A stretch of DNA of 43,246 nt from a virus. Position numbers and translations under genes: made by a program. The notes beneath the pieces were generated by a model. It made no database searches and had not been told where the DNA came from. It worked only from the letters and a program-made list of their open reading frames with translations. This document shows positions 1,687-35,084 of this stretch, piece after piece; position 1 is the stretch's first letter, and every line of letters starts with the position of its first letter. The stretch is from IMG/VR virus record IMGVR_UViG_3300031566_000112, positions 1 to 43,246 of that record, one strand, 5' to 3'.

Positions 1687-2109
1687 ATGAAAGAAAAAAA
1701 CATCCAAACGCTTTTTGGCCAGCAGAACGAAATCGAGGGATTTTTTGAACTCAAGCTTTGCAAGGGGAAATCCATCAGGTGGGACGCGGTTCGTGACCAT
1801 CAAATAGCCGCCCTCGGGTTGGCCGCATCCGAAACCGGTTTTTACTACAAAATACCTGACTCCCCCGTTTCCACGACTCAGAACACGGATGGATTCCGAT
1901 TCACGAAAAGGAAGCCGTTCGATTGCTTTTTTCTTAGGGGGTTACCAGCTTATGTCGTGATCTGCTGGTATGTTCCGAGAAAACTGAAAACGCTGTACTA
2001 TATCACGATAGGGGATTATGTTGCCGCGATGGAACGAGCCGCAAAAAAATCTTTCAACGAAATCGAGGCCAAAGAAATGGCGCGATTTGTCGTTGATCTG
2101 AAAGGATGA
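1687..2109 (+). CDS. RecU/Holliday-resolvase-like PDDEXK nuclease
   Basis: The 140-residue protein shows FFELKL near residues 19-24 (the E-x-K of PDDEXK nucleases), RDHQIAAL at 36-43 (matching the conserved HQ of RecU-like resolvases), a FDCFF block near residue 79 and a terminal YYITIGDYVAAMERA segment, again RecU-like. RecU and phage relatives cleave Holliday junctions or branched DNA before packaging. The N-terminal part before ELK is short, so the first acidic residue of the site is not obvious. AAAGGA precedes the ATG. Other PDDEXK nuclease activities are possible. Confidence 0.5.
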   Translation: MKEKNIQTLFGQQNEIEGFFELKLCKGKSIRWDAVRDHQIAALGLAASETGFYYKIPDSPVSTTQNTDGFRFTKRKPFDCFFLRGLPAYVVICWYVPRKLKTLYYITIGDYVAAMERAAKKSFNEIEAKEMARFVVDLKG

Positions 2110-2112
2110 GAC

Positions 2113-2187
2113 ATGATCGATCTGAAAAAAACAAGTGAACTTCTCAGAACACAGGACAACCGATCAACCGAGCACCCTCTTTTCTGA
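2113..2187 (+). pseudogene. truncated gene fragment before mom
   Basis: An ATG with an AGGATGAG ribosome site opens only 24 codons, ending in TGA where the sequence enters the segment that resembles the Dam gene start. The peptide (ending RSTEHPLF) looks like the N-terminus of a longer phage protein cut off by recombination. No continuation is seen in other frames. It is most likely a remnant left by arrival of the mom segment. Confidence 0.4.
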
Positions 2188-2203
2188 TGGTGAATTCCTG
2201 AAA

Positions 2204-2233
2204 ATGAAGGCACCATTCCCATATTTCGGAGGC
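2204..2233 (+). repeat. copy of the first 30 bases of the Dam gene
   Basis: These 30 bases differ at only two positions from 3201-3230, the start of the adenine methyltransferase, and encode MKAPFPYFGG in both places. Here the frame runs directly into the mom gene. The copy indicates that mom was inserted within or beside a methyltransferase start and that part of it was duplicated. Confidence 0.8.
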
Positions 2234-2251
2234 GACACAACAGGAGAAGCT

Positions 2252-2941
2252 ATGAAGAATTACATTTACAGTCAGTTAGCGATGTTTGGTGAAAATGAGA
2301 TCGTCGGTTTTGGTGGTGATGGCTTTTTCGTCAAGGAAATAGCGCGTAAGAATGCAAACGAAGTCATAGTCAATAATCACTATTCAAAAAAATTTTACAC
2401 GGCCTCTACTATCCATCTCGGCGTTTTTTTAGATAACGCAATGATTGGTGTTTTGCAATATGGTTTCGCAATGAATCCGGCCTCAATGGCGTCTGTTGTC
2501 GCTGATACGAAAATTGACGAATACTTAGAACTAAATCGGATGTGGTTTGTTGATAATTCCCCAAAGAATGCAAAAACTCAGGGGCTATCGCATGCAGTTA
2601 AATATATCAAACGTAAGTTCCCGAAAATCGGATGGATACAGTCTTTTGCAGATGAGCGTTGTCATAAATTCGGCATAGTATATCAGGCAGCAAACTTTCT
2701 TTATTGTGGTGAACATGAGAACCTTTTTTGGGAAATCGAAGGCGAATTTTATCATAATAGCCTAATGACACGCGATCCAAAGTTAACACCATCAGCACTA
2801 TTTGTGCAGTCTAACAAGTCAAAAGCAATAAAACACACGCTTCGCCAGTTCCGATATATTTATTTCATCAAAAAGAATCTTCGTGCCAAGTTGCGGCATA
2901 AGGTTCTTCCGTATCCGAAACATTATCAAGTCGTAGTATAA
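2252..2941 (+). CDS. mom: Mom-like adenine modification protein
   Basis: The 229-residue protein matches the phage Mu Mom family, GNAT-fold enzymes that convert adenine in DNA to a carbamoylmethyl-type derivative and so block restriction. Recognisable blocks are NNHYSKK (near residue 40), LGVF..NAMIGVLQYG, YLELNRMWFVDNSP (near 92) and IQSFADERCHKFGIVYQA (near 128). The start was placed at 2252 because AGGAG lies five bases upstream; the same frame is open further upstream through a copied piece of the Dam gene (ATG 2204), so a fusion form is possible. The base composition looks richer in A and T than the neighbours, consistent with transfer. It is flanked by gaattcctga at 2192 and 2978. Confidence 0.75.
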   Translation: MKNYIYSQLAMFGENEIVGFGGDGFFVKEIARKNANEVIVNNHYSKKFYTASTIHLGVFLDNAMIGVLQYGFAMNPASMASVVADTKIDEYLELNRMWFVDNSPKNAKTQGLSHAVKYIKRKFPKIGWIQSFADERCHKFGIVYQAANFLYCGEHENLFWEIEGEFYHNSLMTRDPKLTPSALFVQSNKSKAIKHTLRQFRYIYFIKKNLRAKLRHKVLPYPKHYQVVV

Positions 2942-3003
2942 CAAAGAACAAAATGTTTCTAAGACAACACGAATGGAGAATTCCTGATGGATGGAGATGA
3001 CAA

Positions 3004-3204
3004 ATGCAAAATAAAGGTCTGAACGTAAAAAGAGAACAATTTGCCCCGCACTGCGAAACTTTTTTTCAAAACAGTAAATGCCCGTATATCAAAAGAGGAT
3101 GTACCGGATGCATGATGGAGCCATGGAAATCATTACTTCCGAAAATATATGATAAACTGTCTGATCCGGAATATGTTCGGGAGATCATGGAGCGATTGAA
3201 ATGA
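3004..3204 (+). CDS. small Cys-rich protein (66 aa)
   Basis: I do not recognise a family. Cysteines at HCETFF, SKCPYIKRGCTGCM suggest a compact metal-binding knuckle in the first half, followed by a helical C-terminus. GGAGATG precedes the ATG. Its stop overlaps the Dam gene start (ATGA), so it is probably expressed with the methyltransferase and predates the mom insertion. Confidence 0.5.
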   Translation: MQNKGLNVKREQFAPHCETFFQNSKCPYIKRGCTGCMMEPWKSLLPKIYDKLSDPEYVREIMERLK

Positions 3205-4148
3205 AGGCGCCATTCCCATATTTCGGCGGCAAATCACTGATATCCTCACGCGTCTGGGAGCTTCTCGGGAACCCGGATCATTATATGGAGCCTTTTTTCG
3301 GTTCCGGCGCTGTCCTGCTTTCGCGAAAAGACTGGATCGGAAAAACGGAAACGGTATGCGACAAGGACGGATTTCTTGCCAATGTTTGGCGCGGAATCAA
3401 GCTGTATCCGGACGAAACCGCGAAATGGTGTGACTGGCCGGTGAACCATGCGGACCTGATGGCCCGGCGCAAGGAATTGATCAAAAACGAGGCTCTGTTG
3501 CTTGAAAGTCTGATTGATGATCCCGAGTGGTGTGATCCAAAACTTGCCGGATATTGGATATGGGCGGCGTCATGCTGGATCGGATCTGGACTTACAAAGG
3601 CATCAGGAAGCGAAAATTGCCAAAGGCCGCATATCGGTTCCAAAGGAGTTGGCGTGAACAAATGCCAAATCCCGCAAATCAGCAATACGGGAATGGGTGT
3701 GATTATAAATTCCGATATCCATGCCTGGTTTGACGCGCTTTCGGGTCGTCTGAGGCGCGTCCGGGTCGTGTGCGGTGATTTTATGCGGATACTTGGCGGC
3801 AATTGGCAGGGTGACAAATGGAAAAACGTAGGCATATTTTTCGATCCGCCCTACGGTGACACAAACAGGGATGTCGGGATCTATCATCACGACGGCACAG
3901 ACATTGCGGAACGAGTCGAAAAGTGGTGTCTCGAACGAACAGGCCTTCAAAACCACAAGATCGTCTTATGCGGATATGACGGCGAATATAAGGCACTCCT
4001 TGAAGCCGGTTGGAAGTCCGAAAAGTGGAAGGCAAACGGCGGATATTCAAACGCGTCGAAAGGCAAAAACAGGAACAAGTACCGAGAGACACTTTTTTAC
4101 ACGCCAAATTGCGAGGCCGGTCCGGTTCAGGGCAGCCTTTTTGGGTGA
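3201..4148 (+). CDS. dam: DNA N6-adenine methyltransferase, Dam (D12) family
   Basis: The 315-residue protein has the D12-class order of motifs: PYFGGKS at residues 6-12 and MEPFFGSGAVLL at about 28-39 (AdoMet-binding motif I region), then D215-PPY (catalytic motif IV). D12 enzymes methylate adenine at N6, often in GATC. A cysteine-rich and glycine-rich insert lies near residues 110-165. It overlaps the upstream small gene by ATGA and ends the leftmost rightward block, just before a control region with a terminator. Together with Mom and the cytosine-methylase-like protein it suggests layered protection of phage DNA from restriction. The recognition site cannot be read from sequence. Confidence 0.9.
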   Translation: MKAPFPYFGGKSLISSRVWELLGNPDHYMEPFFGSGAVLLSRKDWIGKTETVCDKDGFLANVWRGIKLYPDETAKWCDWPVNHADLMARRKELIKNEALLLESLIDDPEWCDPKLAGYWIWAASCWIGSGLTKASGSENCQRPHIGSKGVGVNKCQIPQISNTGMGVIINSDIHAWFDALSGRLRRVRVVCGDFMRILGGNWQGDKWKNVGIFFDPPYGDTNRDVGIYHHDGTDIAERVEKWCLERTGLQNHKIVLCGYDGEYKALLEAGWKSEKWKANGGYSNASKGKNRNKYRETLFYTPNCEAGPVQGSLFG

Positions 4149-4267: not shown

Positions 4268-4303
4268 GCGTGTTGCATAATAGGCGGAAAAGACGGGAAA
4301 AAT

Positions 4304-4332
4304 TCAGTTGTCAAGAAATCCTTGACAACTGA
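4304..4332. repeat. 12-bp inverted repeat containing TTCAGTTG
   Basis: The arms TCAGTTGTCAAG and CTTGACAACTGA are exact complements with a five-base spacer. The left arm carries the TTCAGTTG word that recurs toward the RHH promoter, which suggests a regulator-binding palindrome. Confidence 0.55.
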
Positions 4333-4336
4333 TTTT

Positions 4337-4626
4337 CGCCAACCGATGCCGGATAATGCCAACTGAATATAGCTCAGTTGGCATTGTTTTTTGTCAATGT
4401 TCATGCGGTTTTCGCCACTTCGCGCCAACCTCGCCATATAGTCAGAATAATAAATTATTTTTTTTAAAAAAGCGCGCGCGAGGGAATTTGAGGCAAGGTT
4501 GGGAATAAAACACTAGTAAGGAAATAGTTGGTTCAGTTGGCTAGGTTGGCGTAATTCAATAAAAACAATGACTTGCAAGATATTTCAGTTGGCGAACAGG
4601 TTGGCGGGAGTAAAATTCAGTTGGCG
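4337..4626. repeat. cluster of TTCAGTTGG / GGTTGGCG repeats
   Basis: TTCAGTTGG occurs at 4532-4540, 4584-4592 and 4616-4624 with near copies at 4303 and 4374. GGTTGGCG occurs at 4544-4551 and 4599-4606 and inverted at 4337-4344 and 4423-4430. The two words alternate in pairs just upstream of the RHH promoter. Such arrays are typical of repressor operators or replication iterons. Confidence 0.65.
4355..4392 (+). terminator. intrinsic terminator after the Dam operon
   Basis: AATGCCAACTGA pairs perfectly with TCAGTTGGCATT (4374-4385) around a seven-base loop, followed by G and six T residues. This is a standard rho-independent terminator for rightward transcription from the terminase-small/Dam block. 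The stem also contains the repeated TCAGTTGG word, so it may be both terminator and operator. Confidence 0.7.
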
Positions 4627-4641
4627 AAAAGCAAAAACGGG

Positions 4642-4669
4642 TTGACAATGGATAAAAAGCCGGTATAAT
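4642..4669 (+). promoter_or_regulatory. strong sigma70-type promoter for the RHH operon
   Basis: A perfect TTGACA (4642-4647) and a perfect TATAAT (4664-4669) are separated by 16 bases. The RHH gene starts 35 bases downstream with a GGGGGAAA ribosome site. The nearest repeat copy (4616-4626) lies directly upstream of the -35 box. Confidence 0.85.
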
Positions 4670-4704
4670 ACCGCCATTATCAACACAGAATTGGGGGAAA
4701 AACG

Positions 4705-4842
4705 ATGATTCCACAGCAAATTTCACTGACTGAGGCGCAAGTCAAACGGCTTGAAAAAGAAAAAAAAGACACCGGTCTCGGCAAGTCTGAGGTGATTCGC
4801 CGGGCGGTTGACATGTATTTTGATGAGAGGGAGGCAAAATGA
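4705..4842 (+). CDS. ribbon-helix-helix regulator (45 aa)
   Basis: The 45-residue protein has the CopG/Arc-like pattern: a short strand (QQISLTEAQ), then two helices around KRLEKEKKDTGLGKSEVIRRAVDM with the GKSEVIRRAV turn typical of RHH proteins. Such proteins bind repeated short sites as dimers and often control their own operon. It is the first gene after the strong promoter and the TTCAGTTGG/GGTTGGCG array, so autoregulation at those repeats is the simplest reading. Its TGA overlaps the next start (ATGA). Confidence 0.75.
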   Translation: MIPQQISLTEAQVKRLEKEKKDTGLGKSEVIRRAVDMYFDEREAK

Positions 4843-5036
4843 AATTAAATTACAAGTGGTTCACGTCAAGGATCAATTATTGGATTGCACGTTACAATTA
4901 TTGGCGAGCATGTGCGAAACTCGTCAATCAGATCGAAGGCCGTGGCGATCAGCTTCCGGAATGGTTTAAAGAATCGCTAAAGTACAAAAACGCTGAGCGT
5001 ATCGTCGGTTCAGATCGGATAAGGGATGAAAAATGA
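4839..5036 (+). CDS. small hypothetical protein (65 aa)
   Basis: I do not recognise it. It is rich in tyrosine and tryptophan near the N-terminus (residues 5-23) and basic overall. It overlaps the RHH gene and the next gene by ATGA at both ends, so it belongs to the early rightward operon. Confidence 0.5.
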   Translation: MKLNYKWFTSRINYWIARYNYWRACAKLVNQIEGRGDQLPEWFKESLKYKNAERIVGSDRIRDEK

Positions 5037-5290
5037 AAAAATTCACACGCAAAGGCCATAAAAAGGCAGCAAGAATCATTCGAGAAATAAAAAAAGGCGC
5101 TTTCGATCTTAAAAACATGATCGGACCTGCCTACGGCGTAACAAGCAAGGCATATAAATTAGCCTGTAAAATACCCGATGCAACAGAATTAAAGTCGGAA
5201 CTTGATGAATCTTGGCTTCGAGAAACTGGAACAATCGTGGGATCTCCGTACTATGAAGCAACCCGGAATCGAGGCACAAAATGCTCGTAG
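5033..5290 (+). CDS. small basic hypothetical protein (85 aa)
   Basis: No family is recognised. The N-terminal 30 residues are strongly basic and helical (KGHKKAARIIREIKKG), suggesting nucleic-acid contact. It starts in the previous stop (ATGA) and its end overlaps the CoiA-like gene start by ten bases, showing a compact operon. Confidence 0.5.
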   Translation: MKKFTRKGHKKAARIIREIKKGAFDLKNMIGPAYGVTSKAYKLACKIPDATELKSELDESWLRETGTIVGSPYYEATRNRGTKCS

Positions 5291-6054
5291 CGATCAATGA
5301 AAACAAGGAACCGGCATTGTCCTTCGAATCAAAAAAAACTGAAGGCCCGTTTTTCTGTCCGGATTGCGGGGAGCCTGTTTTTTTGAAACAGGGGGATGAA
5401 AAAATACATCATTTTTCACATTTCCCCGATTCGTCTTGTGGGCATGGGTTAGGCGAGAGTGAACAACACCTGCTATCAAAGCGTGATGTCTTCTTGTTAT
5501 TGAAAAAAAATCCAGCGGTAAAATCTGTTGAAATTGAAAAGAGGATCGGCAATGTAATATCGGATGTATTTTTTACAAGACACGATGGAGAGATGTGCGC
5601 AATCGAAATACAAATAACCCATACTTCGGCGGATAACATATCAAAAAAAATGTCTGAATATTTCATAAGTGGAATACCGGTATTGTGGATACTTCAAGAT
5701 TCTCCTTATGATGAAAAATGGAAAAAATGTATTAGAATAATGAGCTTCGGAAAATCATTTTGGCTTCGTGATGGAGTTGTATCATGTATGAAAAACGACT
5801 TCGACATGAAAAACGTTGTTGACGTCGCTTGCTTTTCAAAATTTCGGGTCGTCGGAAAATATTATCAACCATTGGGATTTGAAATACCAAACTGCCTTTT
5901 GTGGCTTCCAGAAGAATGTCATCTCCCGAAAGAATTCTGCTCTCATATTGAAGAATGCAAGTCGTGTGAAAGCAGGAACAACTCGTATTGCATGAAGATA
6001 GCACAATCACTGTCAATATATCCATTTAAAAAAATATGTGGTGACGACATATGA
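5281..6054 (+). CDS. CoiA-like nuclease-domain protein
   Basis: The 257-residue protein follows the CoiA family plan. An N-terminal zinc-ribbon-like segment carries C26-x-x-C29 and HHFSH (43-47) with a further Cys at 53, then ESEQHLLSK, then a PDDEXK-type core with D95 (SDVFF) and the E109-x-Q111 pair in AIEIQ, followed by GIPVLWIL. A second Cys cluster lies near the C-terminus (residues 220-238). CoiA proteins take part in DNA uptake and recombination, and phage relatives probably process DNA. It lies directly before the VapE-type helicase, which supports a replication or recombination role. Confidence 0.65.
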   Translation: MLVAINENKEPALSFESKKTEGPFFCPDCGEPVFLKQGDEKIHHFSHFPDSSCGHGLGESEQHLLSKRDVFLLLKKNPAVKSVEIEKRIGNVISDVFFTRHDGEMCAIEIQITHTSADNISKKMSEYFISGIPVLWILQDSPYDEKWKKCIRIMSFGKSFWLRDGVVSCMKNDFDMKNVVDVACFSKFRVVGKYYQPLGFEIPNCLLWLPEECHLPKEFCSHIEECKSCESRNNSYCMKIAQSLSIYPFKKICGDDI

Positions 6055-7298
6055 CCCAAAAACAACCACCACCAAAAAAAAAACCGCCCCCGCGTCCGTC
6101 CGAGGTCCTGAGCATGATGGAGGAAGCCGGGTATCGATTCCGGTTCAATGTCGCGAATGACGAAATCGAGTGCAACGGTCGGATAATGTCGGACGGCCAG
6201 GCGGCGCAGATTCGATGCTGGGCGAAGGAATGGCAAATCGGCATGTACGGCAAGGAGGCGCTGTCAGATGTCATGATTTTGGGGGCAATGCGGAACGAAT
6301 ACCATCCTGTCCTAGAATACGTGACCGGCATAAAATGGGACGGTCGGGATCACATATACGATCTTTGCCAAAAATTCAAAAGTCCGGATATCGCAATACG
6401 GTATGACGACGGATCATGTGTTCAAATCGCCGATCTTTATTTGAGAAAATTCCTTGTCGGGGCAATCGCAAAGGCGTTGCACGGGGAGCAAAACAACGTG
6501 CTTGTTCTTGAGGGTCCGCAAAATTGCGGCAAATCGGCTTTTGCAAAATGGCTTTGTTCCGGAATGCCTGAATATTTCATTGAGCATCCGCTTTACGGCA
6601 ATCTCAAGGACATGGATATGAGCCTGATATCAAATTTCATCTGGGAGATTTCCGAACTTGACGCGACGACCGCAAAAAAAGACATCGCATCGATAAAGGC
6701 TTTCGTGACGAAACACATCGTTGAAACCCGTCCGGCTTACGGTCGATTTCGGATAAAAAAGCCGTCAATGGCCTCGTTCATCGGAACTGTCAATCCCGGA
6801 ATCGGTTTTCTTGCCGACGAGTCAGGGAACAGGCGGTTTATGTGCATGAGGCTTGAGAGAATAGATTGGTCATATTCCAAAGACTCCCCCGATCAGTTAT
6901 GGGCACAGGCGTACAATCTTTACATGTCCGGCGAAAAATGGACACTTTCCGCGATTGAAAAAACGTATCAGACGGAAAGGAACAAGGCGTTTGACATCGA
7001 ATCACCGATTGAGGATTTCATCAGGAAATATTTCGACATAACCGGCAACAAATACGATTTTGTCCAGACGACCGACATTATCCAGACATTGCGTAAAAAC
7101 GAAGTCGTTTTAAATCCGAACCGATCCACATCAATGGAAATTTCGCGTTCGATGGCTCGGCTCGGAGCAAAAAAATCGAGAGATGGGTCTATTCGCGGAT
7201 ATTCCGGCATAAGGAAAATAGAGGCCACTTATCAGCCAGAATACTCCGAGGATGAGCCTGTCTATGAAAAACGATTCGAACAGCAATCCTTAAATTGA
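6051..7298 (+). CDS. VapE/VirE-type replication helicase
   Basis: The 415-residue protein is a virulence-associated-E (VapE) type P-loop ATPase. It has Walker A EGPQNCGKSAFAKW near residues 153-166, a Walker B-like FIWEISELD near 197-205, FIGTVNP near 243 and GNRRFMCM near 263, in the order seen in phage and satellite SF3-like helicases. The N-terminal 130 residues are the accessory region typical of VapE; no separate zinc-ribbon primase domain is visible. It is the only replicative ATPase in the window, so it is the likely initiator helicase. A proline-rich N-terminus (PPPKKKPPPRP) is notable. Confidence 0.8.
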   Translation: MTQKQPPPKKKPPPRPSEVLSMMEEAGYRFRFNVANDEIECNGRIMSDGQAAQIRCWAKEWQIGMYGKEALSDVMILGAMRNEYHPVLEYVTGIKWDGRDHIYDLCQKFKSPDIAIRYDDGSCVQIADLYLRKFLVGAIAKALHGEQNNVLVLEGPQNCGKSAFAKWLCSGMPEYFIEHPLYGNLKDMDMSLISNFIWEISELDATTAKKDIASIKAFVTKHIVETRPAYGRFRIKKPSMASFIGTVNPGIGFLADESGNRRFMCMRLERIDWSYSKDSPDQLWAQAYNLYMSGEKWTLSAIEKTYQTERNKAFDIESPIEDFIRKYFDITGNKYDFVQTTDIIQTLRKNEVVLNPNRSTSMEISRSMARLGAKKSRDGSIRGYSGIRKIEATYQPEYSEDEPVYEKRFEQQSLN

Positions 7299-7323: not shown

Positions 7324-7650
7324 ATGAAAACTGAATCGAAAGGAGCGGAAATGCACGATTTTGAAGCACAATTCGAAAGAGAAAAAAAGGTCATTGCGGA
7401 GCGAACAGGCAAAACGCTCGTTCGCCAACTCCCGAAGATCATGGAGGAGATATGCGAAAAATACGACGAAATCCACGAGCTTTCACTTGATCTCGGAAGA
7501 TGGATCGATCATATGGATTCGGACGATGAGGCCGTTTTCACACAGGCCGGGATAGGCGCGATAACACTTGCTTTCGAAAAAACTGTTGTCGCAACTAAAA
7601 AATGGCGCGAAATCGAAGACGCCATAAAAAAAACGGTGGGGATTGAATGA
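7324..7650 (+). CDS. helical hypothetical protein (108 aa)
   Basis: I do not recognise it. It is acidic and predicted almost wholly helical, with possible coiled coil at residues 10-60. AGGGAGG precedes the ATG at a good distance. Its stop overlaps the next gene. It sits between the helicase and the methylase-like gene; a role in replication is only contextual. Confidence 0.5.
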   Translation: MKTESKGAEMHDFEAQFEREKKVIAERTGKTLVRQLPKIMEEICEKYDEIHELSLDLGRWIDHMDSDDEAVFTQAGIGAITLAFEKTVVATKKWREIEDAIKKTVGIE

Positions 7651-8315
7651 TGGCATATCTTGGCCCCCTCGGAGGATTTTCGGCGGAAGAGGCGTTGGCG
7701 CTTTTTATAGAAACAGACGAAAAATTCCTTGACGATGAGATCAAAAGACTCGAAGAAAAAATAATCGAACTCGACAAGGAGTGCAATGTGATTTTGGTCG
7801 GAAAAAATATCGGAGTCGAAAATTATATCCCGCCACAGGAAGTTTATGGAATTATTGCAAATCCTGTTTGCACAGATTTTTCCGTTGCCAAGAACTCAAA
7901 TGCATTGACATATCCTGACATGATAATTGTTGACGCATGCTTGCAGATAATCAAAAAATGCGACCCGATTTTCTGGGTCATTGAAAATCCGGCAAGCGGG
8001 CGGCTGAAAAATTACCTTGGCAAACCAAATTTTGTTTATGAGCCTTGGCAATTTGGAAGCCCCTGGACAAAACGAACGGCGCTTTGGGGAAAATTCCACG
8101 CGCCAAAACCGATCTATTCAAAATGGGAGGATGTCATCAAGAACGAAAATCTTTACATCAGGCCGGGAAGAAAAAAACCGGGTCTTGCATTCTTGCACAA
8201 ATCCGCAAAAAGACATATCCGTGAATTCGACAGGTTTGATATTGATGACGACGCCTCTTTTCGGTCATTGTGTCCGCAAACATTCGCGCGCGCATTTTTC
8301 GAAGCAAACCCGTGA
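7647..8315 (+). CDS. C5-cytosine-methyltransferase-like protein, shortened
   Basis: The 222-residue product shows the later half of a C5-methyltransferase-like fold: IIANPVCTDFSVAKNS near residues 70-85 (motif IV, catalytic Cys in a PVC instead of PPC setting), WVIENPASG near 110 (motif VI, ENP for the usual ENV), and WQFGSPWTKRTALWG near 130. The usual N-terminal AdoMet motif (FxGxGG) is missing or reduced to LGPLGGFS, and no target domain is visible. Phages carry similar shortened proteins. It could be an active divergent methylase, a deoxycytidylate-modifying relative or an inactive copy. Confidence 0.5.
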   Translation: MMAYLGPLGGFSAEEALALFIETDEKFLDDEIKRLEEKIIELDKECNVILVGKNIGVENYIPPQEVYGIIANPVCTDFSVAKNSNALTYPDMIIVDACLQIIKKCDPIFWVIENPASGRLKNYLGKPNFVYEPWQFGSPWTKRTALWGKFHAPKPIYSKWEDVIKNENLYIRPGRKKPGLAFLHKSAKRHIREFDRFDIDDDASFRSLCPQTFARAFFEANP

Positions 8316-11408: not shown

Positions 11409-11479
11409 TTTCGTTAGTGTTTTTCCCGCTCAACTGAATATAATACTACACCATTAAAACTTTTATGTCAAGCGTTTTG
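11409..11479. repeat. 71-bp direct repeat, copy A
   Basis: These 71 bases are identical to 12760-12830. Each copy contains a leftward promoter and the word CAACTGAATATA, which is also found in the terminator region at 4360-4371. Copy A overlaps the 3' end of the gene at 11446-11730. Confidence 0.95.
11443..11471 (-). promoter_or_regulatory. leftward sigma70 promoter A
   Basis: On the minus strand a perfect TTGACA (plus positions 11466-11471) is followed after 17 bases by TAGTAT (11443-11448). The region just downstream contains ATTCAGTTGAG, resembling the TTCAGTTGG words near the RHH gene. It should drive the genes from 11391 down to 10046. Confidence 0.75.
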
Positions 11480-12759: not shown

Positions 12760-12830
12760 TTTCGTTAGTGTTTTTCCCGCTCAACTGAATATAATACTAC
12801 ACCATTAAAACTTTTATGTCAAGCGTTTTG
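12760..12830. repeat. 71-bp direct repeat, copy B
   Basis: Identical over 71 bases to 11409-11479. The copies lie about 1.35 kb apart and each precedes a leftward gene group. Perfect identity implies a recent duplication or gene conversion. Confidence 0.95.
12794..12822 (-). promoter_or_regulatory. leftward sigma70 promoter B
   Basis: Same elements as promoter A: minus-strand TTGACA at 12817-12822 and TAGTAT at 12794-12799, 17 bases apart. It should drive the nucleotidyltransferase-like, zinc-ribbon, RHH and 94-residue genes. A GGTTGGCG word lies upstream at 12869-12876. Confidence 0.75.
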
Positions 12831-34886: not shown

Positions 34887-35084
34887 TTATTGACTTTCTG
34901 TCTGAGGAATCTCTCCGACAAAAACCACAGCAGGGCCAAATCTTACGAGCGTATGTCTGAGGAATCTCTCCGACAAAAACCACAGCAGGGCCAAATCATC
35001 GTAACCCATTGACATCAATTCATTTATTCTTTGTCTTTCCCATCCGTCAGATTTTTTGTTTCCTGGCAATCTAATATCTTTCAT
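34887..35084 (-). CDS. small hypothetical protein (65 aa), carries tandem duplication
   Basis: AAGGTG precedes the ATG, which overlaps the preceding stop. Unrecognised. The C-terminal half is altered by a 44-base direct repeat with a 55-base period (34899-34997): after the first LALLWFLSERFLR the second repeat is read in another frame. Ends 12 bases before the HTH gene start. Confidence 0.45.
   Translation of the reverse strand: MKDIRLPGNKKSDGWERQRINELMSMGYDDLALLWFLSERFLRHTLVRFGPAVVFVGEIPQTESQ
34899..34997. repeat. 44-bp tandem direct repeat
   Basis: 34899-34942 and 34954-34997 are identical over 44 bases with a 55-base period. The insertion is not a multiple of three, so it shifts the reading frame of the overlying gene. 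Confidence 0.95.

Follow-up and report, generated by a model that had tools for sequence, protein, structure and literature searches.

The window analyzed here is the whole virus record, 43,246 bases in length. Read from left to right on the + strand, the locus starts with the 5' remnant of a gene that we call X (24 codons, 2113-2187), followed by the left copy of a 15-base repeat (2187-2201), a left copy of a dam start (2202-2233), an 18-nt spacer that carries AGGAG, the ribosome-binding site of mom (2234-2251), and mom itself, a Mom-family DNA adenine hypermodification gene encoding 229 amino acids (2252-2941). The right copy of the 15-base repeat (2973-2987) then precedes an ORF of 66 amino acids with four cysteines, designated here the Cys ORF (3004-3204), whose stop codon overlaps the dam start at its ATG, and the locus ends with dam (3201-4148), which encodes a D12-type N6-adenine DNA methyltransferase and is intact. 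An earlier note on this DNA had named most of these elements, and we found every one that it named, with positions that proved right to within one base.

Genes at the locus

The ORF at 2113-2187 translates as MIDLKKTSELLRTQDNRSTEHPLF followed by a stop codon, and the earlier view of it as a truncated gene was borne out. Our own HMM, built from intact family members, matches the stub with an E value of 1.7e-4 at the N terminus of the domain, the sole significant match to the X family in the six-frame translation of the window, and the intact members extend more than 100 residues beyond the 24 codons of the stub. Among the family members are p12 of phiARM81mr, the HK022 ead/Ea22-like protein (through its C-terminal part), and a protein of Xanthomonas phage Rb1, to which the stub is 54.5% identical over 22 amino acids by tblastn. 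The stub still possesses a Shine-Dalgarno sequence (-5.4 kcal/mol). In Aeromonas phage phiARM81mr, the intact gene X overlaps a Dam gene located directly downstream, which makes X followed by Dam a known natural order, albeit with a Dam of another family (PF05869).

Judged from its sequence, mom is a genuine Mom gene, full length and apparently intact, so that the earlier description of a Mom-like gene holds. Its product matches PF25680 with an E value of 4.6e-66 and 222.8 bits (cut-off, 27.1) over model positions 2 to 202 of 202, as well as phrog_1384 (1.3e-53) and the Mom entry 8bv8 of the PDB (3.4e-56). The protein contains the conserved blocks of the family and is 48% identical to Mom of Pseudomonas phage JD024 and 42% identical to that of Mu, its closest relatives being found in unrelated Mu-like phages. 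By homology, Mom translated from the ATG at 2252 would modify adenines of the phage DNA.

That ATG is preceded by a well-spaced AGGAG (-7.4 kcal/mol). The reading frame is also open from the relic ATG at 2204 through Mom to 2941 (ORF 2135-2941), as the earlier note had seen when it proposed a Dam-start/Mom fusion; the relic start, however, has no ribosome-binding site, its Shine-Dalgarno strength (-3.1 kcal/mol) being at the background level set by all AUGs of the + strand (-2.8 on average). The fusion is therefore unlikely, and although possible in frame, it would account for a minor product at best. Read in the +1 frame, the 18-nt leader ends with ATTQEKL and a TGA that overlaps the ATG of mom, perhaps the tail of a gene formerly located upstream of mom. 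A GATC cluster upstream of mom was considered as a Mu-like element of Dam control and was rejected, since the window contains four such clusters and the one near mom is not special.

The small Cys ORF and the full Dam gene are present after mom as described earlier. We found no relative of the Cys ORF in Pfam, PHROGs, NCBIfam, phages, or viral contigs. Dam is a full-length ORF that matches PF02086 (8.5e-9, 35.9 bits, with a cut-off of 22), carries the DPPY and PFPYFGGK motifs, which are invariant or conserved in the Dam alignment (A1), and is 50 to 57% identical to its viral relatives. Its score against TIGR00571 (29.9) is far below the cut-off of 114.85, and the name Dam hence implies no GATC specificity. 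From the homology of the two proteins, Dam would be expected to methylate adenines as well, and Mom and Dam jointly would protect the phage DNA against restriction. A second DNA-methyltransferase-like ORF (PHROG 757, 8.6e-23) is located at 7647-8315, immediately before the large terminase gene.

A duplicated dam start and a segment of foreign composition

The left copy of the dam start, AAATGAAGGCACCATTCCCATATTTCGGAGGC, encodes MKAPFPYFGG and ends after the GG of the SAM-binding motif. The 30-base copy reported in the earlier note is real: positions 2204-2233 and 3201-3230 are identical at 28 of 30 bases, or at 30 of 32 when the two A's before the ATG are counted (2202-2233 versus 3199-3230), whereas the best 30-mer pair obtained in 100 dinucleotide shuffles of 2100-3300 reached 23/30. 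Across the whole window, direct pairs of at least 26/30 occur at four offsets only, one of which is that of the dam-start pair. The two differences between the copies, GCA/GCG and GGA/GGC, are both synonymous. In the viral contig collection, we found no other KAPFPYFGG start whose next codon does not begin with A, that is, which departs from K at that position. An assembly artefact is an unlikely source of the duplicate: two bases distinguish the copies, whose exact identity is limited to 17 bp, less than the k-mers that assemblers usually employ.

The 967 bases between the two copies, which contain mom and the Cys ORF, have a G+C content of 38.8%, the lowest among all stretches of equal length in the 43-kb record. 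The 967-bp stretches of the record average 48.7% with a standard deviation of 3.9%, and the segment is thus about 2.5 standard deviations lower. The GC3 values of mom and of the Cys ORF are both near 0.385, compared to 0.563 for dam, and the overall GC of the Cys ORF (0.388) is similar to that of mom. Together, these values support the view that the mom-Cys segment is compositionally foreign with respect to the phage backbone. A second stretch of the record, 5101-6067, is almost equally A+T-rich, and within it lies the gene of a CoiA-like competence protein (5281-6054; PF25164 and PF06054). We detected nothing above chance that would serve the mom-Cys cassette as a promoter or terminator of its own. 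The dam-start repeat, which is the strongest repeat, and the change in composition share their borders, and this coincidence is our main reason for taking the dam-start repeat as the border of the cassette and mom plus the Cys ORF as the inserted unit.

Search for relatives

With a Dam profile, we retrieved about 160 D12 dam loci from GTDB genomes and viral contigs, and none of these loci contains gene X, the Cys ORF, or this order with mom. Scans of the viral contigs with the TerL, resolvase-like, and Cys-ORF proteins returned no relative, and a blastn search for distant matches in phages returned none. The earlier note had suggested a comparison with relatives that lack mom and carry an intact gene at the Dam junction; the viral contigs, GTDB genomes, and phages that we searched yielded no close relative, neither one with an empty site nor a donor. 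In two IMG/VR contigs, L138 and L139, a D12 dam and a divergent Mom gene stand in this order with 10 nt between them (L138:9968-11668; PF25680, 1.9e-32), whose product in L138 is 29% identical to the Mom of the window. These contigs provide an independent dam-mom pair and show that the two modifications are found paired elsewhere too. Among the annotated phages for which the mom neighborhood was read, a methylase is annotated within about 2.5 kb of mom in one.

Origin of the arrangement

The earlier note had read the locus as the record of a single recombination event that added mom. The observed features speak for this reading, namely the repeat, the truncation of gene X, the identity and integrity of mom and dam, and the foreign composition of the segment; since no empty-site relative was found, we infer the direction, the mechanism, and the occurrence of a single event. 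On balance, we lean toward the view that a low-G+C mom-Cys cassette was acquired at the 5' end of a D12 dam gene and that the dam start was left in duplicate. According to the mechanism that we propose, a cassette with mom and the Cys ORF (approximately 2234-3200) would have entered at the 5' end of the D12 dam of the phage, by recombination or by break repair at the conserved sequence for the SAM-binding start, MKAPFPYFGGK. The event would have duplicated the dam start, creating a 32-bp direct repeat around the cassette and leaving a dead stub on the left and an intact dam on the right. As gene X is now reduced to a remnant of 24 codons, its 3' part would have been removed by the junction itself or by an earlier deletion. 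Insertion at a dam start has a precedent in three phage dam genes split by HNH genes and left with truncated starts, which we describe below. Several points count against our account: no empty-site or donor relative was found, the stretch 5101-6067 is almost equally A+T-rich, the 15-base repeat offers a competing border, which would enclose the dam stub and mom only, and the stub might come from another dam, given that the dam start of another locus, L111, reaches 29/30.

The last of these points leads to the alternative that survives best, namely that the left stub is the remainder of a second, foreign dam (dam') that traveled with mom and that an internal deletion fused the dam' start to the mom leader. 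Dam-mom cassettes do exist, as in L138 and L139, and both differences in the stub are synonymous, as expected from a working gene. Moreover, the DNA of the dam start is itself conserved, since these 30 bases code for the SAM-binding N terminus of D12 methylases (MKAPFPYFGG), and distant relatives can accordingly reach 26 to 29/30: among the D12 relatives that were fetched, the best match to the dam start of the window is that of L111, followed by one match of 27/30 and three of 26/30, the others being lower. The L111 protein is just 50% identical to Dam of the window, so the 28/30 identity alone does not prove the origin of the stub. Nevertheless, no more than about 1% of the examined D12 dams reach 28/30 or better against the dam start of the window, the Mom of L138 is not close to that of the window, and no further dam fragment is present between the stub and mom. 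We consequently regard a foreign dam' as unlikely, and the 28/30 identity favors, short of proof, a stub that would have been copied from this same dam gene.

HNH genes at the start of other dam genes

In L098 (7301-7930), L116 (283-915), and L178 (reverse strand, approximately 4287-4935 of the reverse complement), dam is split at the KAPFPYF(G) codons by an HNH endonuclease gene. The three HNH genes constitute one family, with 35 to 59% mutual identity and PF13392 scoring above its cut-off in two of them, and the inserts measure 589 to 609 nt, of which just about 100 nt lie outside the HNH ORF in each case. The 5' dam stubs encode VKAPFPYFG, SAPFPYF, and LKAPFPYFG, and the split genes resume at YFGGK; when the insert is skipped across a TAYTTYGG repeat, the reading frame is restored in all three. 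Each insert ends in a strong hairpin, the 3' arm of which re-encodes APFP and is followed by a stop codon, with a gap of 5 to 10 nt between this stop codon and YFGGK. We rejected group I and group II introns as an explanation for the split genes, the inserts having neither an Rfam match nor an intron core.

A dam gene with the same succession of hairpin, KAPFP, and TAG before YFGGK occurs in L099 (9970-10045), where neither an HNH gene nor a 5' stub is found nearby; this signature is possibly what an insertion left after its decay, or else an amber codon in frame that would require readthrough. Programmed readthrough or frameshifting at the hairpin-stop junctions was rejected, since the frames that would be required differ among L098, L099, L116, and L178 and the junctions therefore share no conserved recoding. 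In L036 (9251-10001), which belongs to a Bacillota MAG, an HNH gene of the same family precedes an intact D12 dam by 164 nt.

The stub of the window also breaks within the conserved start codons of dam, after YFGG, compared to after YF or YFG in the three split genes. It is thus a scar of the same type at almost identical codons, except that its cargo is mom and that dam is intact to the right. Cases of a free-standing HNH endonuclease gene interrupting another gene at a critical site are on record for mobA in gene 60 of T4 and mobE in nrdA of Aeh1 (PMC2988022), and homing endonuclease genes are located at exchange boundaries between phages (PMC10448857). Such precedents, together with the one HNH family that leaves a 5' stub each time it splits dam and with its fourth member upstream of dam in L036, would be compatible with a homing-driven origin, in which the HNH enzyme of a coinfecting phage would have cut the conserved dam start and the mom segment would have been taken up during repair, with the stub left behind. 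We consider this origin quite improbable: neither mom nor the Cys ORF contains an HNH domain, tblastn revealed no credible relative of these HNH genes anywhere in the window (best E value, 0.045), the stub of the window extends 4 to 6 nt beyond the other stubs, and the right border shows neither the hairpin nor the KAPFP-stop signature. A broader proposal would make the dam start, fixed at the DNA level by its SAM-binding motif, a recurrent integration hotspot of phages, where HNH breaks could be used to load unrelated antirestriction cargo such as mom beside the methylase and where stubs remain as scars; we offer it only tentatively and regard it as unlikely.

The 15-base repeat and the stub

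The earlier note had also described a repeat word, GAATTCCTGA, as flanking the segment. Both copies are present (2192-2201 and 2978-2987), within a longer match of 14/15, ATGG[T/A]GAATTCCTGA, the right copy of which stands between mom and the Cys ORF. Their role as borders is weak, in competition with the 32-base repeat of the dam start: a pair of 14/15 arises region-wide in 4 of 100 shuffles, and in 1 of 1,000 when the comparison is restricted to the two flanks, so that we consider the 15-base repeat suggestive only. If these repeats were the borders, the insertion would comprise the dam stub and mom (2187-2972) and would separate gene X from a Cys-dam pair already resident. The frame of X, followed through the right copy, reads EWRIPDGWR and then a stop codon, just before the ribosome-binding site of the Cys ORF, an operon-like disposition that would suit this scenario. 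We find it quite improbable, given the frequency of equally good matches in the shuffles and given that the Cys ORF is A+T-rich to the same degree as mom. Furthermore, we rejected EWRIPDGWR as a C-terminal remnant of gene X, because the family HMM detects none at this position.

Finally, a functional stub, either translated from 2204 into a Dam-start/Mom fusion or regulating mom, is very improbable: the frame is indeed open to 2941, and some Mom homologs have 26 to 34 residues before the conserved GFG/GYG, compared to 35 in the fusion and 19 in the form starting at 2252, but the Shine-Dalgarno strengths favor 2252, an open frame across the 18-nt spacer is expected by chance in about one case out of four, and the RNA structure of the stub is no stronger than that of shuffled sequences (z, -0.42).

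Comparison with known systems

The kinds of genes present at the locus are already known, and it is their arrangement that is new. The mom gene of Mu and of Casadabanvirus (PF25680, PHROG 1384) belongs to the same Mom family, with 42 to 48% identity and the conserved blocks kept. In Mu, mom overlaps the upstream gene com, whose product is a small translational activator with a CCCC zinc finger, whereas in the window the X stub and the dam stub stand upstream of mom and no com-like gene is found there. The four-Cys ORF of the window, considered alongside the Com sequence, comes after mom and matches no protein family. The contigs L138 and L139 share with the window the adjacency of a D12 dam and a Mom gene but differ in that dam comes first, Mom is divergent, and no duplicated dam start is seen. 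As with mobA of T4, mobE of Aeh1, and the three HNH-split dam genes, a foreign gene occupies a critical conserved site with a piece of the host gene on its left; in the window, however, mom and a small ORF make up the cargo in place of an endonuclease gene, and dam is intact on the right. The cassette also resembles a moron, an extra gene of deviant composition between resident genes of a phage operon, but it is bordered by a direct repeat of the start of its target gene, it truncates its neighbor, and it has no promoter or terminator of its own above chance.

If the mom-Cys cassette was acquired at the 5' end of dam as we propose, the locus would be a readable scar of the gain, by a phage, of a DNA hypermodification gene beside a methylase. 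Considered with the three HNH-split dam genes, whose interruption falls at these codons too, it raises the possibility that mobile genes or cargo genes land at the conserved start of phage D12 methylases.

Two other direct repeats of the window deserve mention. A perfect repeat of 71 bp is found at 11409-11479 and 12760-12830, 1351 bp apart and near leftward genes, one of which is weakly repressor-like; its copies are possibly duplicated promoter/operator regions. An exact repeat of 44 bp, with a period of 55, is found at 34899-34942 and 34954-34997, at the edge of a leftward ORF.
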